DNA of 64,000 nt, from contig NZHC01000144.1 in NCBI GenBank assembly GCA_002689655.1, forward strand, positions 5,719-69,718, written 5' to 3'. The DNA is from Rhodopirellula sp. GTDB lineage: Bacteria; Planctomycetota; Planctomycetia; Pirellulales; Pirellulaceae. Made by a program: the position numbers and the translations under genes. The stretch's first letter is position 1. The number at the start of each line of letters is the position of its first letter. The notes under the pieces were generated by a model that ran no database searches, had not been told where the DNA came from, and worked only from the letters and a program-made list of their open reading frames with translations. Below are positions 42,783-51,956 of this stretch, piece after piece.

Positions 42783-45248
42783 TTGGAAAACGAAGAGTTC
42801 ATTCGCGAGTTCCTCGAAGAATCCGAGGAGAATCTTGATCAACTTGATCAGGATTTTGTCTCGCTCGAGCAGCACCCAGGGGATCTCGAGCGGCTGGACA
42901 GTATTTATCGCGCCATCCACACGATCAAGGGAACCAGCGGTTTCTTTGGCTTTTCGAAACTCGGTGCTGTGGCTCATGCGGCTGAAAACCTGCTAAGCCG
43001 TCTTCGTGACGGCGAAATCACGCTCACTGAGCGCCTCACATCTGCCCTGCTCGACTCAGTCGATGCGATTCGTGACATCCTGTCAAACATCAGCAAGGAT
43101 GGTGGAGAGGGCGAAGGTAATTACAGGGCGCTGAACCAGCAATTGGATGACTTGTGTGCCTCAGCTCCTCTTACCGAGGTTGCCACTGACGATGCAAAAC
43201 ATGCAGTTGTCGATGGAAACGCCTCGCATGTCGCAGGATCAACCGACAACGTCATTACGGATGATGAAGAACCGCCACCAACGCCGCCAGCTGTTACATT
43301 TTCCCAACCAACGTCGGTACATCAACCGCCTGCATTTGACCCGTCAAGCACGGACAATCAAAAGAGCGTGGCAAGCAGCATCACCACTGCTCCCCCGATT
43401 GAATATTCGATTGAGCAGCCCACTGCTGATCTAAACCAACCCACCGGCGAGGGACCGCGACGCCTCGAACAGGAAACCAACCTTCAGAACTCAACTCCGG
43501 AACTGGCCCATCGCACCGACCCAACCTCAGGAACGAACCACAATGCTGGATCCGAGGGCAGCATTCGTGTTGACGTCGGTTTGCTCAACCAATTGATGGA
43601 TCTCGTCGGTGAACTTGTTCTCGCTCGAAACCAACTTTTGCAGACACACGGTAACGACAAGGATTCTCAGTTTTCCAAGATCACACAACAAGTCAATCGT
43701 ATCACTACGGAGCTTCAAGAACGCGTCATGCAGACGCGAATGCAACCTATCGGCAATATCTGGGGAAAATTCCCGCGGTTGGTTCGCGACCTCGCCGTGA
43801 TGTGTGGAAAAGAAATCGATCTAGGCATGCACGGTGCTGAGACCGAGGTAGACAAGTCTCTGCTGGAAGCAATCAAGGATCCACTGACGCACCTCATCCG
43901 CAACGCAATTGACCACGGTATCGAAACTGCTGAAGACCGTGTCTTGTGCGGCAAGCACGAAAAAGGCCAGCTGCATCTTCGAGCCTGGCACCAAGGTGGC
44001 AAGGTCAACATTGAAATAACTGATGACGGACGCGGAATCGACGCTGCAAGCATCCGCGAAAAAGCCATTTCAAAAAACCTGATCACACCTCAAGACGCGG
44101 AGACAATGGAGGATCAACAAATGGTCCAACTCATCTTTCGACCCGGATTTTCGACCGCACAGGAAGTTACCGGAATCTCGGGACGCGGAGTTGGCATGGA
44201 TGTCGTCAAAACAAATATTGAAAGCATTGGCGGCACGATTGAGGTTCAAAGCCGACCTGGCACTGGTACCGCCATCAAAGTCAAAATTCCCTTGACACTT
44301 GCAATTGTTCCCGCACTTATCATCTCGAGCAACAACCAACTATTTGCGATTCCGCAGAGTCATCTCGTTGAAATGTTGCGATTGGACCTGAAAAATCAAC
44401 GCGACCGTATTGAGCACCTAAGGGATACTCCAGTGTATCGCCTCCGTGGTGAGTTACTTCCTCTGGTTGGACTTCGTCAACTAATGGGAACCGAATTAGC
44501 AACCAACACTGCACAATTGGAACATGTCAATATAGTCGTCCTCCAAGCCGACAACTGTCGTTTCGGGCTGATTGTTGATCATGTGGAGCGTACAGAAGAG
44601 ATCGTAGTCAAAGCCCTTCACTCATCGCTTGGTGTCGTTCCGCACTTCGCCGGTGCAACTGTCATGGGCGATGGCCGTGTAGCGCTGATTCTTGATGTGC
44701 TTGGACTAGCAACCGACATTGGGCTCACAGTAGAAGAACTCCAAAGAGCCTCAGAGCTGATCGATCAACCAACCCTTGAGTCACCAGCAACACGAATGCT
44801 GATCTTCCGCGTGTCGTCAGGGCGTGAATTAGCCATGCCTCTCTCTGAAATAGACCGAATTGAAGAAGTACCGATCGCGAGAATCGAACAAACAGAAAAA
44901 CTGCAGGCTGTTCAGTATCGTGGACAAATCATGCCATTGTTGCCACTCTCAGAAATACTCGGCGAGCCGGGCCGAGATCGTTTCCTCCCCAATGACAACA
45001 CAACTTTTCCAGACGAGGCTGTAAAAGCGATTGTGGTGAGTGTAAACGGAGCACACACAGCACTCGCCGTCAGAGACATTGTTGACGTGGCGGCACAAGA
45101 AGGCACCATGCGTGTGACAAACAATCCAGCAAGCCTCGTACGCGGAGCGGCTGTGATTAACGGAAAAGTAACCGATGTGCTTGACCTTCAATCCGTCCTA
45201 CACAGTAGCGGTCTCCATGATCACTCGCTCATAGGAACAGAACAATGA
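42783..45248 (+). CDS. cheA: chemotaxis histidine kinase CheA with two CheW-like domains
   Basis: The 821-residue kinase phosphorylates its response regulators in answer to receptor state. Domain order: HPt at 1-110 with phospho-acceptor H46 in A-I-H-T-I-K-G-T-S-G; a Thr/Pro/Gln-rich linker at about 125-255 in place of a CheY-binding P2; dimerisation helices; then the ATPase with R-N-A-I-D-H-G-I, D-D-G-R-G-I and G-R-G-V-G-M-D-V-V. Two successive CheW-like modules follow (about 500-655 and 670-815), whereas most CheA proteins have one. It starts at TTG 42783 with GGGGA upstream; an ATG at 42775 is out of frame. Its stop overlaps cheW by 4 bp. Confidence 0.93.
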   Translation: MENEEFIREFLEESEENLDQLDQDFVSLEQHPGDLERLDSIYRAIHTIKGTSGFFGFSKLGAVAHAAENLLSRLRDGEITLTERLTSALLDSVDAIRDILSNISKDGGEGEGNYRALNQQLDDLCASAPLTEVATDDAKHAVVDGNASHVAGSTDNVITDDEEPPPTPPAVTFSQPTSVHQPPAFDPSSTDNQKSVASSITTAPPIEYSIEQPTADLNQPTGEGPRRLEQETNLQNSTPELAHRTDPTSGTNHNAGSEGSIRVDVGLLNQLMDLVGELVLARNQLLQTHGNDKDSQFSKITQQVNRITTELQERVMQTRMQPIGNIWGKFPRLVRDLAVMCGKEIDLGMHGAETEVDKSLLEAIKDPLTHLIRNAIDHGIETAEDRVLCGKHEKGQLHLRAWHQGGKVNIEITDDGRGIDAASIREKAISKNLITPQDAETMEDQQMVQLIFRPGFSTAQEVTGISGRGVGMDVVKTNIESIGGTIEVQSRPGTGTAIKVKIPLTLAIVPALIISSNNQLFAIPQSHLVEMLRLDLKNQRDRIEHLRDTPVYRLRGELLPLVGLRQLMGTELATNTAQLEHVNIVVLQADNCRFGLIVDHVERTEEIVVKALHSSLGVVPHFAGATVMGDGRVALILDVLGLATDIGLTVEELQRASELIDQPTLESPATRMLIFRVSSGRELAMPLSEIDRIEEVPIARIEQTEKLQAVQYRGQIMPLLPLSEILGEPGRDRFLPNDNTTFPDEAVKAIVVSVNGAHTALAVRDIVDVAAQEGTMRVTNNPASLVRGAAVINGKVTDVLDLQSVLHSSGLHDHSLIGTEQ

Positions 45249-45766
45249 TCGCAACATTCCCCCCCAAACAAACACAAGTCTGTGCCTTCACGCTTGGTGA
45301 ACATTTATTTGGCATTGATGTCAGGTACGTTCAGGAGGTGCTCCGCTTCCAGGAATGCACTCCGATTCCGTTGACTCCGCCGTTAGTGAAGGGACTTCTG
45401 AATCTGCGCGGCCAAATTGTGTTGGCAATAGACATGAGGCACCGGCTCGGGCTCCCTGAGCAACCACGCGGATCATCGCCCATCAGCATCGTGGTACGAA
45501 TCGCGGATGGCGTGTTGAGTTTTCTCGTTGATGAAATCTTTGACGTCATGAGCCTTGATTCCGCACAATTCGAAGCGACGCCGGAGACACTTTCCAACAA
45601 CGAGAAACGGTTTGTGAGTGGATGTTTCAAGCTGGACGATCGCATCTTGATCATGCTTGATGCCTCTCAAATCGCTGACATCTCTGCCGACCTACGCAGT
45701 GCACTTGAAGGACAACGCTTGATGCCCGAACTGGACGTCCTGGCTTGCCCCAGTGCTTGCACGTGA
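45245..45766 (+). CDS. cheW: CheW coupling protein
   Basis: The 173-residue protein bridges receptor and CheA. It shows the CheW beta-barrel features: [12 protein letters not shown]-x-Y-V-Q-E-V-L, P[23 protein letters not shown] near residues 40-65, and F-L-V-D-E-I-F-D-V. The C-terminal 25 residues extend past the domain. It starts within the cheA stop (ATGA), and the mcp frame begins 100 bp after its stop. Confidence 0.93.
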
Positions 45767-45866
45767 TCTACCGAACACAACTTACAAATTTAGCGACCCC
45801 GATCCCCTTCCAAAATCAGTAATTTGGCTGCTCTTCATTGAGCCGCTACCCAACGAGGGACACAAC

Positions 45867-48047
45867 ATGAACGAACCATCCACCATGAATGAACAACGAG
45901 GTCTTGCTCGACTCACTGGTATGGCGCGCAGCATATTTCGAAACCGATTGCTACTGGCATTACTTGCCATCTCGTTGATTCCCTTAAGTGTTCTCGGCTT
46001 GTCGATGTATTACCTCGCATCCAATGCGATCATGAAGCAGGCCAACGATCGATTGAGTGCTGTGCGTACCATTAAAGCCAATCAAATCCAAAGTTACTTT
46101 CACTCGATCCAGGATCAAATTCAGACATTCTCGGAAGACCGCATGGTAATTCAGGCCATGTCGGACTTAAAAACAGGGATGGAAAAGATTCAGGGCGAAA
46201 CTGAAGTGACCGACGAAAGCATCGTGGAAATGCGTCAGCAGGTCGGCAGGTACTACAACACCGAATTTGTGCGTCGATATAACGCAGAGACCAACAATGC
46301 CCAGAAAGCAGGAGGAGCTTTGCTGGACAAGCTTGTCTCTCCGTTGGACCCCAACGCGATCATGCTTCAATACCAGTACATCCAGAGAAACCCAAACGCC
46401 CTGGGGAGTAAACACCTGCTCGATGATTCTGGTGATGGCTCCAGCTACAGCAGTTCCCATTCCCTATATCACCCTATCATTCGAAGTTACTTACAGAAGT
46501 TTGGTTACTACGACATTTTCCTAGTCGACATTAAAAGCGGCGACATAGTTTATTCGGTCTTCAAGGAAGTAGATTACGCAACCTCTTTGCGTGATGGACC
46601 ATATGCATCAACCAACTTAGGACGTGCGTTTCGCGCAGCGGCCAAGTCAAGCTGGAAGGATTCAGTCATCTTTGTTGATTATGAAGCGTACCCTCCCTCC
46701 TACGAAACCCCAGCCAGCTTCATCGCATCGCCAATTTTCAATGGAGACGAAAAAGTTGGAGTGGCAATTTTTCAAATGCCTATCGGCCGAATCAATGAAA
46801 TATTGTCTGAACGCACGGGATTGGGAGAAACAGGCGAGACGTACGCCGTCGGCTCCGATCATCTGTTTCGAAATGACTCCCGTTACCTCAATGAACTGGA
46901 CGTGGAATCAACCATCATCAATCCAGCATTGAAAGTGAACACCAAGGCGGTCCTCAGTGCTCTCGAGCAAAACGACACAGATTGTACGGTCATCCAGAAT
47001 TATCGCGGAGAGCAAGTTCTTTCGTCGTGGCAACCTCTTACCGTTGACATCGACGCGGAGGGCAATCAAGACGGGCGACATTGGGCTCTGATGTCAGAAA
47101 TCGAATTAGCCGAAGTACGCCGACCTGTTATCCAGATCGCCTTTTACTCAACAATGATCTGCGTCATCACAGCGTTCTTGGTCCTATGGATCTCGTACCG
47201 CTTCTCAAGGCAATTTACCGCGGAGGCCGTTCGGCAGGCGGCACTCGTTCACGGTATCGCCGACAATACTACGTCGCTTGCGGGGGCCTCAGAAGAATTG
47301 TCGTCGGTAAGCCAACAGATGAGCACCAATGCAGAGCAAACAACCGCCCAGGCAAACGTAGTCTCGAGCGCCGCTGAACAGGTAAGTCAAAACGCACAAA
47401 CTGTTTCATCCGGCGTCGAAAGCATCACCGCAAGCATTCGAGAAATCTCAGAGAGTGCGAATGAAGCAGCTCGCGTTGCAAGCGAGTCGGTGCGGGTGGC
47501 ATCAGCTGCCAATGATCGAATTACCAAGTTGGGCCAAAGCAGCTCAGAGATCGGTGAAGTCATCAAAGTGATTACGTCAATCGCTGAGCAAACCAACATG
47601 CTTGCCCTTAATGCCACCATCGAAGCAGCGCGTGCGGGTGATGCGGGAAAAGGGTTCGCCGTCGTCGCCAATGAGGTAAAGGAATTGGCACACGAAACAG
47701 GTCGAGCCACGGAAGACATCCGGCAAAAAATTGATGCCATCCAAGAGGATACCGGCGAAGCCGTGGACGCAATTGGGCAGATTAGCACCATCATTAACAA
47801 GATAAGTGATTTTCAAAACACCATTGCAAGTGCCGTTGAACAACAAACCTCAACAACCTGTGAAATAAGTCGAAATGTTTCGGAAGCCGCCATAGGCAGC
47901 ACCGAGATTGCCCAGAACATTACCCAAGTTGTGTCAGCTGCCGAGAGCACCGCCGAGGGAGCTGGCAACATGCAGATGTCGGCAGAAGAGTTGGCGAGAA
48001 TGGCAGCGGATCTCCGTTCCCTCGTCGAGCAGTACCGCGACGCTTGA
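45867..48047 (+). CDS. methyl-accepting chemotaxis protein without an evident HAMP domain
   Basis: From ATG 45867 (GAGGGA upstream) the 726-residue receptor has membrane helix 1 at about 27-48 and a large extracytoplasmic region of about 370 residues, long enough for a double Cache sensor. Membrane helix 2 is at about 420-443, and the signalling coiled coil reaches to the C-terminus. The CheA/CheW-binding tip reads [16 protein letters not shown] near residue 580. Only about 20 residues separate helix 2 from the coiled coil, too few for a HAMP domain. No C-terminal CheR/CheB tether peptide is present. The ligand is unknown. Confidence 0.9.
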
Positions 48048-48067
48048 TAATTCGGTAGCATCAAACC

Positions 48068-49744
48068 ATGCGAGCATTTGTAATTGACGATTCGAAACCG
48101 GTACGCAGTATCTTGGCAAAGATGCTGCAGACCATGGATTTCGAGACGACAGAAGCCGGAGACGGGAAGCAGGCATTAGAGCTTCTGACTGACCAAACCA
48201 AACCCGACGTGTTTGTGGTCAATTGGAATATGCCGATCCTGAATGGCTTGCAATTCATCAAAACGGTCAAAGCCGATTTCAAGTACTCTGGTATTCCCGT
48301 GCTTGTCGTTTCTGGTGAAACAAAAAAATCCACCAAAGCCAAGGCCGCCAACGCTGGCGCCAGTGCCTTTCTCAGTAAGCCCGTAACTCTTGCCACACTC
48401 CGCACCACGCTTGTCAAACTCAGCGTACTCCCAAGTGTCACTGACACAGCACTTCCACAGCAACCTCTTGCCAACCCCGTCACACCATCAATCCCAAAGT
48501 TGACTCAGGCATCCCCCACAGAAAACAGGGGCCCTACCCACCATGCTTCCCGTACCACAAACCCATCCACCTCGCACAATGAAGTGAAGATCCTTGAAGA
48601 CAAGGCTGCTGAGAATTCATCTGCCGCGAAGACTCGCGTTTTTATTGTGGATGATTCGGTGGTGGTACGCGGAATCGTGAGCAAGATGCTGCAGCAAGAT
48701 GGAGAAATCGATGTAGTTAACACGGCTGCTGATGGTGTCATTGCACTTGCCAAACTTGAACGGTGCGAGGTGGACGTGATTTTGCTGGACATTGAAATGC
48801 CGCGGATGAATGGCTTGCAAGTACTAAAAAAACTTCGCGAAATGAGAAACCGCACGCCAGTCGTGATGTTCAGTAGCCTCACGCAACGTGGCGCATCGGA
48901 AACCATCGAAGCCCTGATGTTGGGTGCGAAGGATTATGTGATGAAACCCGGTGGTGCCTTCATGACCGACGCCAATGAAGGAAAACGGGCCATCCTGGAG
49001 GAATTGATACCGAAGGTAAAACAGGCTGCATCGAAAACGCGTACTGGACTTGCAGCCTCAAACACAACAACTCCGGCGCTGACAACAACAAACCCAACAC
49101 CGGCGAAGCGGGCGAGAAAGATAGACGCCGTGGTAATCGGTGTGTCAACCGGAGGTCCTCAAGCTCTCGCGAGATTGATTCCAAAACTTGGAAGAGATTT
49201 TCCAGTGCCTGTGTTGATCGTTCAACACATGCCGGCCGACTTCACCAAACATCTCTCTGACCGATTAACCATGGAATGCGGGTTTCCTGTATCCGAGGCA
49301 GTGCATGGTCAGAAACTGGAAGCGGGGTCATTTGTGGTCGCTCCCGGCGGGTACCATCTGAGTGTGAAACGTTTTGCATCCAAAGTGATCGTCGCACTGA
49401 ACGACGGACCTGCAGTCAATGCTTGCAAACCATCGGCGGATGTGCTTTTTAAATCAGCCGCAAAAGCCTATGCAGGAAGCGTTCTCGGGGTGGTGTTAAC
49501 GGGCATGGGGTCCGACGGAACCGCCGGGGCCAACGCAATCAAGGCCGCCGGTGGCAGCACCGTCGTTCAAGACGAGGACAGCAGTGTGGTGTGGGGCATG
49601 CCAGGAAGTGTGGTTCGTCACGGTGCTGCTGAACAAATGGTCCCAATCGACGAACTTGCCAGCGAGATATTGAAACGAGCCTGGAAACAACGCATTCGGA
49701 ATACCTCTTCTAACTCCTCCGTTAGTGAGGCATCCAGCAAATGA
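48068..49744 (+). CDS. cheB: CheB methylesterase with an extra, phospho-acceptor-less receiver
   Basis: The 558-residue protein has three modules. Receiver 1 (1 to about 120) keeps the acidic pair D7-D8, S82 and K104, but the phospho-acceptor site reads V-V-N-W-N-M-P with N52 instead of Asp. After a Pro/Ser/Thr linker, receiver 2 (about 190-310) is intact with D241 in L-L-D-I-E-M-P. The CheB domain (about 350-540) has G-V-S-T-G-G-P-Q, V-Q-H-M-P and G-M-G-S-D-G, giving the Ser-His-Asp triad that demethylates receptors. The cheR start overlaps its stop (ATGA). Receiver 1 probably acts in protein binding or as a fixed-state module. Confidence 0.92.
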   Translation: MRAFVIDDSKPVRSILAKMLQTMDFETTEAGDGKQALELLTDQTKPDVFVVNWNMPILNGLQFIKTVKADFKYSGIPVLVVSGETKKSTKAKAANAGASAFLSKPVTLATLRTTLVKLSVLPSVTDTALPQQPLANPVTPSIPKLTQASPTENRGPTHHASRTTNPSTSHNEVKILEDKAAENSSAAKTRVFIVDDSVVVRGIVSKMLQQDGEIDVVNTAADGVIALAKLERCEVDVILLDIEMPRMNGLQVLKKLREMRNRTPVVMFSSLTQRGASETIEALMLGAKDYVMKPGGAFMTDANEGKRAILEELIPKVKQAASKTRTGLAASNTTTPALTTTNPTPAKRARKIDAVVIGVSTGGPQALARLIPKLGRDFPVPVLIVQHMPADFTKHLSDRLTMECGFPVSEAVHGQKLEAGSFVVAPGGYHLSVKRFASKVIVALNDGPAVNACKPSADVLFKSAAKAYAGSVLGVVLTGMGSDGTAGANAIKAAGGSTVVQDEDSSVVWGMPGSVVRHGAAEQMVPIDELASEILKRAWKQRIRNTSSNSSVSEASSK

Positions 49745-50574
49745 CCATCAGACCAGATACCTTCGCGTACATCCGTGACAACTTACACCGACGAACTGCG
49801 ATTCATCTAACGGAGAATAAAGAATATCTTGTAGAGACGCGTTTATCGATGCTGGCACGTAAAAATGGACTTCGTAATGTTGATGCCCTGGTAGATCAAC
49901 TGCGAATACCGGGTTCCTCAGTGCCCTGGCACGAGGTTGTGGATGCAATGACGACCAACGAAACATCGTTTTTCCGGGATGGCACGCCCTTTGACGTATT
50001 TAGCAACAAGGTCCTGCCGGCCCTGACGGAAAACGCAACGGGACCGAAGCAGCTCCAGGTGTGGTCGGCCGCCTCTGCCAGTGGTCAGGAGGCCTACAGC
50101 ATTGCAATGCTATGGAATGAACTCCGTGACCATTACCCACATTGGGATCTCAAAATCCTAGCCACCGACATCTCGCAGAAAATGCTAAAACGTGGACAGG
50201 AGGGCTCGTACTCGGGTTTGGAGGTTCTCCGGGGCGTCTCTGAGCGTCGGCTGGCCGAACACTTCCACCGTTCCGGCGACCGCTACCGCGTCAACGAACA
50301 GCTAAATAAACAAGTGCAGTTCAAATATCTCAACCTAATTCGTGCCTGGCCGTCACTTCCCAAAATGGACATTGTCTTCATTCGCAATGTTTTGGTCTAC
50401 TTTGACCACCCCACCAAGTGCAATTTATTCGCTAAAGTGCGCAAGATATTGAAGCCCAATGGCTTCTTGTTTTTAGGTGGAGCGGAGTCAGCACTGACCA
50501 TCGACGACCAATTTGAACGAGTTTTTGACAACGGTGGCAGTTGCTATCGGTTGAAAAATGAAGACACAACATGA
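49741..50574 (+). CDS. cheR: chemotaxis protein methyltransferase CheR
   Basis: The 277-residue SAM-dependent enzyme methylates receptor glutamates. The N-terminal helical domain (about 1-75) includes L-x-x-R-L-S-x-L-A-R-K-x-G. T-T-N-E-T-S-F-F-R-D follows near residue 72, and the SAM site is W-S-A-A-S-A-S-G-Q-E-A-Y-S-I-A-M; typical CheR has W-S-A-G-C-S-T-G-E-E-P-Y-S, so several positions are changed while the fold pattern is kept. D-I-V-F-I-R-N-V-L-V-Y-F-D closes the active region. There is no tetratricopeptide extension. Both ends overlap neighbouring genes by 4 bp. Confidence 0.92.
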   Translation: MTIRPDTFAYIRDNLHRRTAIHLTENKEYLVETRLSMLARKNGLRNVDALVDQLRIPGSSVPWHEVVDAMTTNETSFFRDGTPFDVFSNKVLPALTENATGPKQLQVWSAASASGQEAYSIAMLWNELRDHYPHWDLKILATDISQKMLKRGQEGSYSGLEVLRGVSERRLAEHFHRSGDRYRVNEQLNKQVQFKYLNLIRAWPSLPKMDIVFIRNVLVYFDHPTKCNLFAKVRKILKPNGFLFLGGAESALTIDDQFERVFDNGGSCYRLKNEDTT

Positions 50575-51956
50575 CTGAACAAATCGAAGTTCTGATCGCG
50601 GAAGACAGTCGCATCCAAGCCAAAATGCTCCGCAGAAACCTTGAAGCTGCTGGCTATGCCGTCCGCTGGGCGGAGAACGGTAAGCTTGGCATTGAGATGA
50701 CAAAACAGCAGCGTCCTGCACTCATCATCTCCGACATTGAAATGCCCGAAATGACCGGTTATGAATTTTGTGAGGCTGTTAAAACAGACGCAAAACTAAA
50801 GACGATACCTTTCATCCTGCTGTCGACCCTGTCAGAGGCAGAGGACATTATTCGCGGTTTGCACGTAGGTGCCGACAATTATGTCACCAAACCCTATGAA
50901 CCAGCCTACCTGCTTTCCAGAGTCAGCGATCTGTTAGCAACGCCTTTAGGGAACGATGAGGACGAAACTGAACTTCAAGTGACGTTGGCGGGTAAACGCT
51001 ACACCGTTAAAGCCGGCAAACAACAAGTGCTGAACCTTCTTGTCTCAACATTCGAGAATGCAGTTGGGAAAAACCGCGAACTTGTCGCAGCAAATCAGGA
51101 GCTGTCGCTCGCCCGGGATCAGCTCAAAGAATGGAACCAAAGCCTCACAACGCTTAACTCTGAGCTCGAGGGCAAGAATCAAAAAATGGCGACCGACTTG
51201 GCAGCTGCTGCGAAGATTCAGCAGTCCCTTCTGCCCAGTGGTACGCCAAATATCCCGAGTGTCAAATTGGCATGGACATACTTGCCTTGTGACGAACTTG
51301 CGGGTGACTTCCTGAACTTCTTTCCGTTGGATGATCGGCATCTTGCAGCCTTCGTAGTCGATGTGAGCGGCCATGGAGTTGCTTCATCCCTGCTCGCGGT
51401 AACCGTGGGGCGGGTCATGACCCCAATGGTTTCCAGTACGTCACTGTTGGTGAAACCATCCAAAGACGCAGGCGGAACAAATATCGTACCGCCCGCTGAA
51501 GTTGCGTATGAGCTCAACAATCGCTTCCCGATGGAAGATCAGGGCAACCTCTATTTTACGATGGTGTATGGAGTTCTGGATAAACAAACCCAACAATTTA
51601 CCTTCGTCTCTGCCGGGCATCCAAACGTCGTCCACGTACCTGCTGGTGGCAAACCCACACTTGTGGAGACTGCTGACATGGCCATCGGTTGGATTGAAGA
51701 TACCGAATTTGAAGAGCACAGCCTGCAGCTTGCACCCGGCGATCGCATCTATTTGTACTCAGACGGCGTTCCCGAGGCGATGGACCACGATTTGGAGGAG
51801 TTCGGGGACGTCCGAATGATTGAGTGTTTGACTAAGTCCCTCGGACAATCTGTCGACGTCAGTATTCAACGATTGTTCGATGCTGTGCACAACTGGTGCG
51901 CAGTGAACGGACCTAAGGATGACGTGTCAATTCTGGGAATCGAGATCACTGAGTGA
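50571..51956 (+). CDS. response regulator fused to PP2C (RsbU/SpoIIE-type) phosphatase
   Basis: The 461-residue protein has an intact receiver (1 to about 125: E-D at 11-12, phospho-acceptor D55 in I-I-S-D-I-E-M-P, K107 region T-K-P-Y). A coiled-coil linker spans about 160-215, and a PPM/PP2C phosphatase of the RsbU type follows (about 220-461). Its metal-binding residues are present in A-G-D-F, V-V-D-V-S-G-H-G-V-A-S and L-Y-S-D-G-V-P-E-A. Such proteins dephosphorylate STAS anti-sigma antagonists in partner-switching pathways. No STAS or anti-sigma gene is in the window. It overlaps cheR by 4 bp and ends the operon, so it is the likely CheA output. Confidence 0.92.
   Translation: MTEQIEVLIAEDSRIQAKMLRRNLEAAGYAVRWAENGKLGIEMTKQQRPALIISDIEMPEMTGYEFCEAVKTDAKLKTIPFILLSTLSEAEDIIRGLHVGADNYVTKPYEPAYLLSRVSDLLATPLGNDEDETELQVTLAGKRYTVKAGKQQVLNLLVSTFENAVGKNRELVAANQELSLARDQLKEWNQSLTTLNSELEGKNQKMATDLAAAAKIQQSLLPSGTPNIPSVKLAWTYLPCDELAGDFLNFFPLDDRHLAAFVVDVSGHGVASSLLAVTVGRVMTPMVSSTSLLVKPSKDAGGTNIVPPAEVAYELNNRFPMEDQGNLYFTMVYGVLDKQTQQFTFVSAGHPNVVHVPAGGKPTLVETADMAIGWIEDTEFEEHSLQLAPGDRIYLYSDGVPEAMDHDLEEFGDVRMIECLTKSLGQSVDVSIQRLFDAVHNWCAVNGPKDDVSILGIEITE

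Follow-up and report, generated by a model that had tools for sequence, protein, structure and literature searches.

The window analysed here is a 64,000-nucleotide stretch of a Rhodopirellula sp. genome (contig NZHC01000144.1, positions 5,719 to 69,718), and at positions 42783-51956 it carries a chemosensory operon with the gene order cheA-cheW-mcp-cheB-cheR-(REC-PP2C). The last gene encodes a receiver (REC) joined through a linker to a PP2C phosphatase. We lean towards the view that this pathway no longer signals through CheY, its output now being a Ser/Thr phosphatase under receiver control with a STAS protein as its target. This view is built on the gene order and domains of the operon, the catalytic residues of REC-PP2C and their conservation, the linkage of REC-PP2C to STAS genes in relatives, the Asn found at the acceptor position of a CheY-like domain fused to CheB, and the lack in the genome of a free CheY of the kind encoded by sister operons.

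The operon is the only chemosensory system of the genome (7.09 Mb in 156 contigs, 99.95% complete). One CheA dimerisation-domain match, three CheW domains and one MCP-signal match were found genome-wide and all of them lie in the operon. The core set is complete by Pfam, with a CheA that has Hpt, dimerisation, ATPase and CheW domains together with a CheW and an MCP. A preliminary description of this DNA had placed a single receptor gene inside the operon, and the mcp gene is indeed the genome's only MCP-signal match.

The operon and the fate of CheY

All six open reading frames (ORFs) of the operon lie on the + strand (Table 1). The stop and start codons overlap by 4 bp (ATGA) at the cheA/cheW, cheB/cheR and cheR/REC-PP2C junctions, and mcp and cheB are separated by a gap of 20 bp. 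The ORFs, the Pfam domains and the junction sequences thus confirm the gene order and the three overlaps given in the preliminary description. The ATG at 45867 is more likely to be the mcp start than the GTG at 45753 that opens the ORF, judging from the sequence. No P2 domain or receiver was found by Pfam in the CheA of the window, and scans for promoters and terminators returned fewer sites than were found in shuffled sequence. With six SpoIIE matches in 7.09 Mb, chance would place about 0.01 of them no farther than 1 kb from the che block.

Table 1. Genes and receiver domains of the chemosensory operon (positions in the window)
Feature	Position	Strand	Domains and remarks
cheA	42783..45248	+	Pfam Hpt (His46), H-kinase_dim, HATPase_c, two C-terminal CheW domains
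cheW	45245..45766	+	Pfam CheW; 4-bp overlap with cheA
mcp	45867..48047	+	Pfam MCPsignal; dCache-like sensor part, sub-threshold dCache match
cheB	48068..49744	+	Two Response_reg and CheB_methylest (Pfam); CheY-CheB fusion
CheB receiver 1, CheY-like	48068..48427	+	Acceptor position Asn52, codon 48221-48223
CheB receiver 2	48638..48949	+	Residues 191-294; Asp241 intact, codon 48788-48790
cheR	49741..50574	+	Pfam CheR_N and CheR; 4-bp overlap with cheB
REC-linker-PP2C, RsbU/SpoIIE type	50571..51956	+	Response_reg and SpoIIE (Pfam); 4-bp overlap with cheR

The acceptor residue of REC-PP2C is Asp55 and its SpoIIE domain, which has the metal-binding Asp residues of RsbU/SpoIIE-type PPM phosphatases, spans residues 254-459. 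This Asp55 and, in CheB, Asp241 are the only intact acceptors in the operon, as had been claimed from the sequence, and the first CheB receiver has Asn instead. Sister operons encode a free CheY, with which this receiver can be aligned and which it resembles most. The acceptor position is Asn in 24/24 fused CheB proteins (17/17 in a first set, then seven further distinct proteins), whereas it is Asp in all 12 of the free CheYs of sister operons that were compared; the Asp of the second CheB receiver is conserved in 18/18 proteins. Judged from these alignments, to call receiver 1 a dead receiver says too little: it is a CheY that has been joined to CheB and in which Asn regularly stands in place of Asp.

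A separate CheY was sought with a profile derived from 11 of the free CheYs that sister operons encode. In three control genomes (G059, G053 and G036) the true members scored 197-208 bits. The top match in the source genome was receiver 1 of CheB, at 112 bits, and beyond it nothing in the genome exceeded 71 bits, which is the level reached by CheB receiver 2 and REC-PP2C with this profile. A free CheY of the kind encoded in sister operons was therefore found neither in the source genome nor in two congeners (G046 and G092), where nothing else exceeded 73 bits.

The REC-PP2C family and its gene neighbours

REC-PP2C belongs to a conserved planctomycete family. A six-member seed alignment (A1) was searched against named genomes and returned at least 80 loci. 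Among these listed matches, 29 (L105-L133) align over all or most of their length at 51-86% identity and are labelled as planctomycetes, and the next-best listed match (L134) is 32% identical. The addition of further genomes and the removal of duplicates brought the set to at least 37 distinct loci, leaving out the distant relatives L134-L139 and L248, a second SpoIIE gene of genome G095 that lies at a contig end and is 50% identical over residues 169-459, with no matching receiver. Asp12, Asp55, Ser85, Lys107, Asp246, Asp264 and Asp398 are kept in 36/36 aligned relatives, and Asp450/451 in 35/36, the remaining one having a gap. Orthologues at E 1e-90 or better, ascertained regardless of che genes, were found in 9/100 genomes of the family Pirellulaceae, and in a sample of the phylum 33/392 genomes had some match at 1e-40, three of which were full-length orthologues.

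The fetched stretch holds che genes in 29 of the 37 listed loci, spread over two CheA lineages and both orientations. The same was true of all nine orthologue-bearing family genomes, with CheA on the same stretch in eight; the ninth (G095) has a short contig that carries CheB and a receiver gene, and its CheA (L058) falls in the type B clade described below. Eight loci lack che genes. Five of these stretches (L110, L116, L120, L123 and L131) extend at most 0.9 kb beyond the 3' end of the gene, and at the other three (L124, L125 and L128) no che gene was found over at least 8.5 kb downstream. Two of the orphan genes, L110 and L124, lie directly 3' of an aspartokinase-like gene (a sequence-based name) in two Rubripirellula-labelled metagenome-assembled genomes, and no che or STAS gene was found in their surroundings. 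GC content is loosely compatible with their coming from genomes of the group, described below, that has fused CheB but no REC-PP2C next to it.

The two lineages differ in layout. Type A, to which the window belongs, has the order cheA-cheW-mcp-(REC-REC-CheB)-cheR, with REC-PP2C co-directional in the clade of the window (six loci) and convergent in 13 loci. Type B (10 loci: L062, L095, L112, L115, L121, L233, L234, L236, L238 and L247, the contig of the last holding only the final three genes) has the order cheW-mcp-cheR-cheA, CheD, free CheY and cheB followed by REC-PP2C. CheD was found by Pfam in both type B loci scanned, and the free CheY has its Asp in 10/10. Type B clusters may give two outputs from one CheA. 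In a CheA tree of 130 rows L058 joins the nine rows of type B in a single branch (support 100), well apart from type A. The type A rows group with free-CheY operons (support 96) but fall into two branches there, and the tree does not settle whether these two unite. A second CheA tree places type A as a whole on one side of a weakly supported branch (80/63).

Among the 116 fetched stretches that carry a CheA kinase gene, 13 also have a PP2C gene. By a check by eye these 116 cover the listed CheA matches of the family sample, apart from the window's own and one 99-base fragment. Nine of the 13 belong to the REC-PP2C family and four are more divergent (L204, L208, L221 and L223, in other CheA groups; receiver and SpoIIE domains confirmed by Pfam for L204 and L221). 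More divergent PP2C genes next to other CheA groups also occur in a chlamydial genome (L134, Parachlamydiaceae, with REC and PP2C as separate ORFs) and in a cyanobacterial one (L136, Gloeocapsa).

The part of REC-PP2C that precedes the phosphatase has relatives of its own. The receiver-linker part (about residues 1-187) recurs at 39-44% identity in deltaproteobacterial/Myxococcota and Nitrospirota genomes with other outputs, where it stands before a histidine kinase (L135 and L139) or GGDEF-EAL (L138). In L135, L137 and L139 the receiver-linker gene directly follows cheB (L137 without a Pfam scan). An exchange of outputs on a shared receiver-linker module would fit these loci.

STAS genes were sought with a profile started from the two stand-alone STAS genes of the source genome. 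A STAS gene lies directly upstream of REC-PP2C on the same strand in 17 of the 37 loci, three of which have two STAS genes in tandem, at a median gap of 92 bp (range 8-302). The STAS domain was confirmed by Pfam in 4/4 neighbours scanned, and the putative acceptor Ser, which we assign by analogy with SpoIIAA, is invariant in 22/22 aligned rows (20 neighbours and the genome's own two). The arrangement is found in 11 of the 13 convergent type A loci (in L073, which lacks it, the contig begins just upstream of the gene) and in six of the eight loci without che genes. With the same profile a STAS gene was found somewhere on 5/103 CheA stretches without any PP2C, one of these matches being weak. 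The 17 linked loci are not independent events since close relatives are included, the REC-PP2C proteins of L120 and L133 being nearly identical.

The preliminary description had proposed a search of related genomes for the gene order and for a nearby STAS gene, and had named a STAS protein as the likely target of the phosphatase. REC-PP2C is a plausible output, given the residues kept in the 36 relatives and the STAS genes upstream of it, and both the che neighbourhood and the STAS gene recur in relatives, but the STAS gene does not do so in the window's own clade. The further claim that the pathway from sensor to phosphatase is self-contained did not hold and a fully self-contained pathway was rejected, as no STAS gene was found within the operon or next to it, and the stand-alone STAS genes of the genome are on another contig.

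Alternatives for the output

Several observations weigh against the proposed replacement of CheY. In type B operons a free CheY with its Asp is retained, so that REC-PP2C would add a branch there rather than replace CheY. Within type A, fused CheB was sought with the window's CheB in 241 family genomes, with few candidates scored per genome, and was found in at least 12, one more (G585) being cut at a contig end. REC-PP2C is adjacent in six of the 12 listed genomes and also in G585, and in G595 its position is out of reach at a contig end. It is absent from the stretch in the other five (L300-L304; G587, G589, G593, G596 and G597), which have fused CheY(Asn)-CheB operons, belong to the window's own genus and can be followed for about 3.5-9.3 kb beyond cheR. 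The second CheA tree includes three of these five operons and shows them as neighbours of the convergent type A group (89/82). This suggests that in the five operons the gene was lost or relocated. Other fused CheB proteins may have been missed, as G041 was listed without its first receiver.

The STAS evidence also has gaps. With the STAS profile no STAS gene was found beside REC-PP2C in any of the six loci of the window's clade or the 10 type B loci, and none was found in positions 30001-64000 of the window. The stand-alone STAS genes of the source genome are not linked to the operon. The nearest STAS relative, on contig C140 (93.5 bits), was rejected as a specific partner because the STAS family is present in 22/22 genomes tested, 13 of which are without REC-PP2C; the target in the window is thus only a prediction. 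REC-HATPase_c_2 proteins on contigs C93 and C16 are candidate kinases, and no link between them and the operon was found.

The strongest alternative, which we nevertheless judge unlikely, is that the system still serves mainly flagellar chemotaxis, with a single receiver of another class encoded elsewhere acting as CheY and REC-PP2C forming a side branch or phosphate sink. The preliminary description had stated that no motility gene is present. This is true of the operon and not of the genome, where Pfam finds FliM on contig C23 and two flagellins and FliD on contig C7, so that the absence of flagella was rejected and a motor link cannot be dismissed on operon content alone. No free CheY, CheZ or CheD gene lies in the operon, and the search for CheD and CheZ was confined to it. 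Another phosphatase gene of the genome, encoding an FHA-GAF-PP2C protein (L101 7874-9655, contig C7), lies about 2 kb upstream of the two flagellin genes and fliD (Pfam).

FliM keeps an N-terminal motif, LSQNQVENLL, of a type which we take to be CheY-binding. This motif was rejected as proof of a motor link since a similar one is carried by the FliM of G058, a genome without CheA, and it is therefore not diagnostic. Flagella without CheA are also common in the family. In a sample of 100 genomes a FliM match was found in 87 and a CheA match in 64, and FliM matches at E < 1e-28 occur in 15 of the 36 genomes that lack a CheA match (a manual count from two lists). The kinship of the type A CheA to the CheAs of operons with a free CheY, and the combination of CheY, CheD and REC-PP2C in type B operons, are consistent with a retained motor route. 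A CheY of a different class would not stand out with this profile, which gives the free CheYs of type B no more than about 59-60 bits (G083, G036 and G059), and such a CheY could hide among the generic receivers of the source genome, which has short receiver frames at 53-69 bits (contigs C62, C82 and C61). In G041 (73% complete) the profile gives 77-82 bits to three other receivers, and the frame of one of them is 155 residues long. Against a motor route stand the lack of a sister-type free CheY in the source genome and in both congeners and the invariant Asn of the fused CheY.

It is improbable that REC-PP2C acts in the manner of RssB, as an adaptor whose receiver governs binding to a sigma factor or some other client, its phosphatase activity being secondary. 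Pseudomonas aeruginosa RssB is the closest solved structure to REC-PP2C by both sequence and fold. An AlphaFold2 model of REC-PP2C shows the receiver, a beta-hairpin, a single helix (residues 150-218) and the PP2C domain (mean predicted local distance difference test score, pLDDT, 83.8; predicted template modelling score 0.56). The likeness rests on the domains and their order because the full-length superposition is poor (template modelling score, TM, about 0.4-0.5). The best NCBIfam match, RssB_Pseudo, is far under its cut-off (144 vs 700 bits), the relatives retain those metal-site Asp residues that were compared, and the linkage to STAS genes favours use as a phosphatase. RssB is itself an active phosphatase in the part of the report that was available (PMC12143880), so the adaptor and phosphatase readings are not exclusive.

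Less probable still is that other histidine kinases phosphorylate REC-PP2C and that it sits in the operon for co-expression only, a reading that the three loci with long che-free flanks and the five fused-CheB operons without an adjacent REC-PP2C would fit and that the repeated adjacency to che genes in both CheA lineages and both orientations argues against.

Precedents and the proposed pathway

Chemosensory systems with a non-motor output are known. In Wsp-type systems CheA feeds a receiver with an enzymatic output, which is a diguanylate cyclase there and a phosphatase in the window. The closest likeness is to che1 of Shewanella oneidensis, where CheA1, CheY1, CheW1, CheR1, CheD1, CheB1, two MCPs, CrsR and the STAS antagonist CrsA are described as one transcription unit (PMC9855816). 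The CrsR protein combines a receiver with a phosphatase and an anti-sigma/kinase domain (PMC6482189). In the parts of these reports that were available, partner switching is reported for CrsR-CrsA and RpoS and a link to Che1 is proposed (PMC9855816, PMC6482189). Both loci place a receiver-PP2C regulator in a che gene cluster. They differ in that CrsR has a third, anti-sigma/kinase domain whereas REC-PP2C has only Response_reg and SpoIIE by Pfam, che1 keeps CheY1 and CheD1 whereas the CheY of the window is fused to CheB with an Asn, and crsA lies inside che1 whereas the window's operon has no STAS gene and a STAS gene is linked only in relatives.

Other receiver- or linker-controlled phosphatases share parts of this design. 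RssB-RssC of P. aeruginosa has a receiver, a long or dimeric helical linker, a PPM phosphatase and a STAS substrate or partner, and differs in that RssB serves as an adaptor for sigma-S and shares its operon with an rsbV homologue; the available text does not mention a che operon (PMC12143880). The same text describes the activation of RsbU through a dimeric crossed-helix linker, and RsbU-RsbV of Bacillus subtilis resembles our system in its dimeric helical linker, PPM domain and STAS partner, although RsbU is without a receiver (PMC12143880). HsbR-HsbA of Pseudomonas is likewise a receiver-PP2C regulator acting on a STAS protein, and as described there HsbR has a kinase domain and works in the HptB cascade rather than in a CheA operon (PMC6482189). 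A review notes, in the section available, that STAS proteins occur in some motility or chemotaxis operons (PMC8256260), and a survey, in its accessible part, proposes for Campylobacterota that a PP2C-kinase with a receiver could influence a chemoreceptor by way of a STAS protein (PMC9239204). Given the Shewanella, review and Campylobacterota precedents, the principle is already known.

With regard to planctomycetes, che, Wsp and flagellar genes are reported in soil species, the part of that paper available giving no detail of the present arrangement (PMC6461901), and no description of a planctomycete che operon with a REC-PP2C output was found in the titles, abstract openings and excerpts read from the open-licence literature searched. 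Two CheW domains in CheA are stated to occur mostly in class F5, in the portion of the source at hand (PMC10782961); the CheA of the window has the two domains and differs from that class in having no C-terminal receiver. What differs here is the absence of a third domain in the regulator, a STAS gene that is outside the operon or linked in relatives only, and the fusion of a pseudo-CheY.

In the proposed pathway a dCache-like receptor would control CheA through CheW. A model of the sensor part (pLDDT 77.5) gives matches of low TM score to dCache ligand-binding domains such as those of McpH and PctA. Asp55 of REC-PP2C and, in CheB, Asp241 would both receive phosphate from CheA, and the phosphorylation of CheB together with CheR would provide adaptation feedback. 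By analogy with the phosphatases described above, phosphorylation of the receiver may reorganise the long dimeric helix and so switch PP2C on or off. PP2C would then dephosphorylate a STAS protein of the SpoIIAA/RsbV type at its conserved serine, and the dephosphorylated STAS protein would change its partner, which may be an anti-sigma factor, a kinase or another enzyme. Phosphotransfer, phosphatase activity, the direction of control, the STAS protein as substrate and the final target are the predicted elements of this scheme. The former CheY would survive as a non-phosphorylatable domain fused to CheB, and with CheY kept only in this form there is no evident canonical route from CheA to the flagellar motor.

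A more far-reaching version, which we put forward tentatively and with rather less conviction than the replacement of CheY itself, is that the only chemosensory system of a flagellated planctomycete lineage was cut from the motor, with CheY joined to CheB and fixed as an Asn domain that takes no phosphate, and the signal of CheA rerouted to STAS dephosphorylation, so that the array senses for a partner-switching circuit, possibly one that governs a sigma factor. If true, this would be a natural output swap in which a chemosensory array feeds Ser/Thr partner switching and the displaced CheY is a pseudo-receiver. The relatives supply specific STAS-phosphatase gene pairs for bench work, and the operon makes it testable how CheA chooses its receivers and whether chemosensory arrays drive stress or developmental programmes in planctomycetes.

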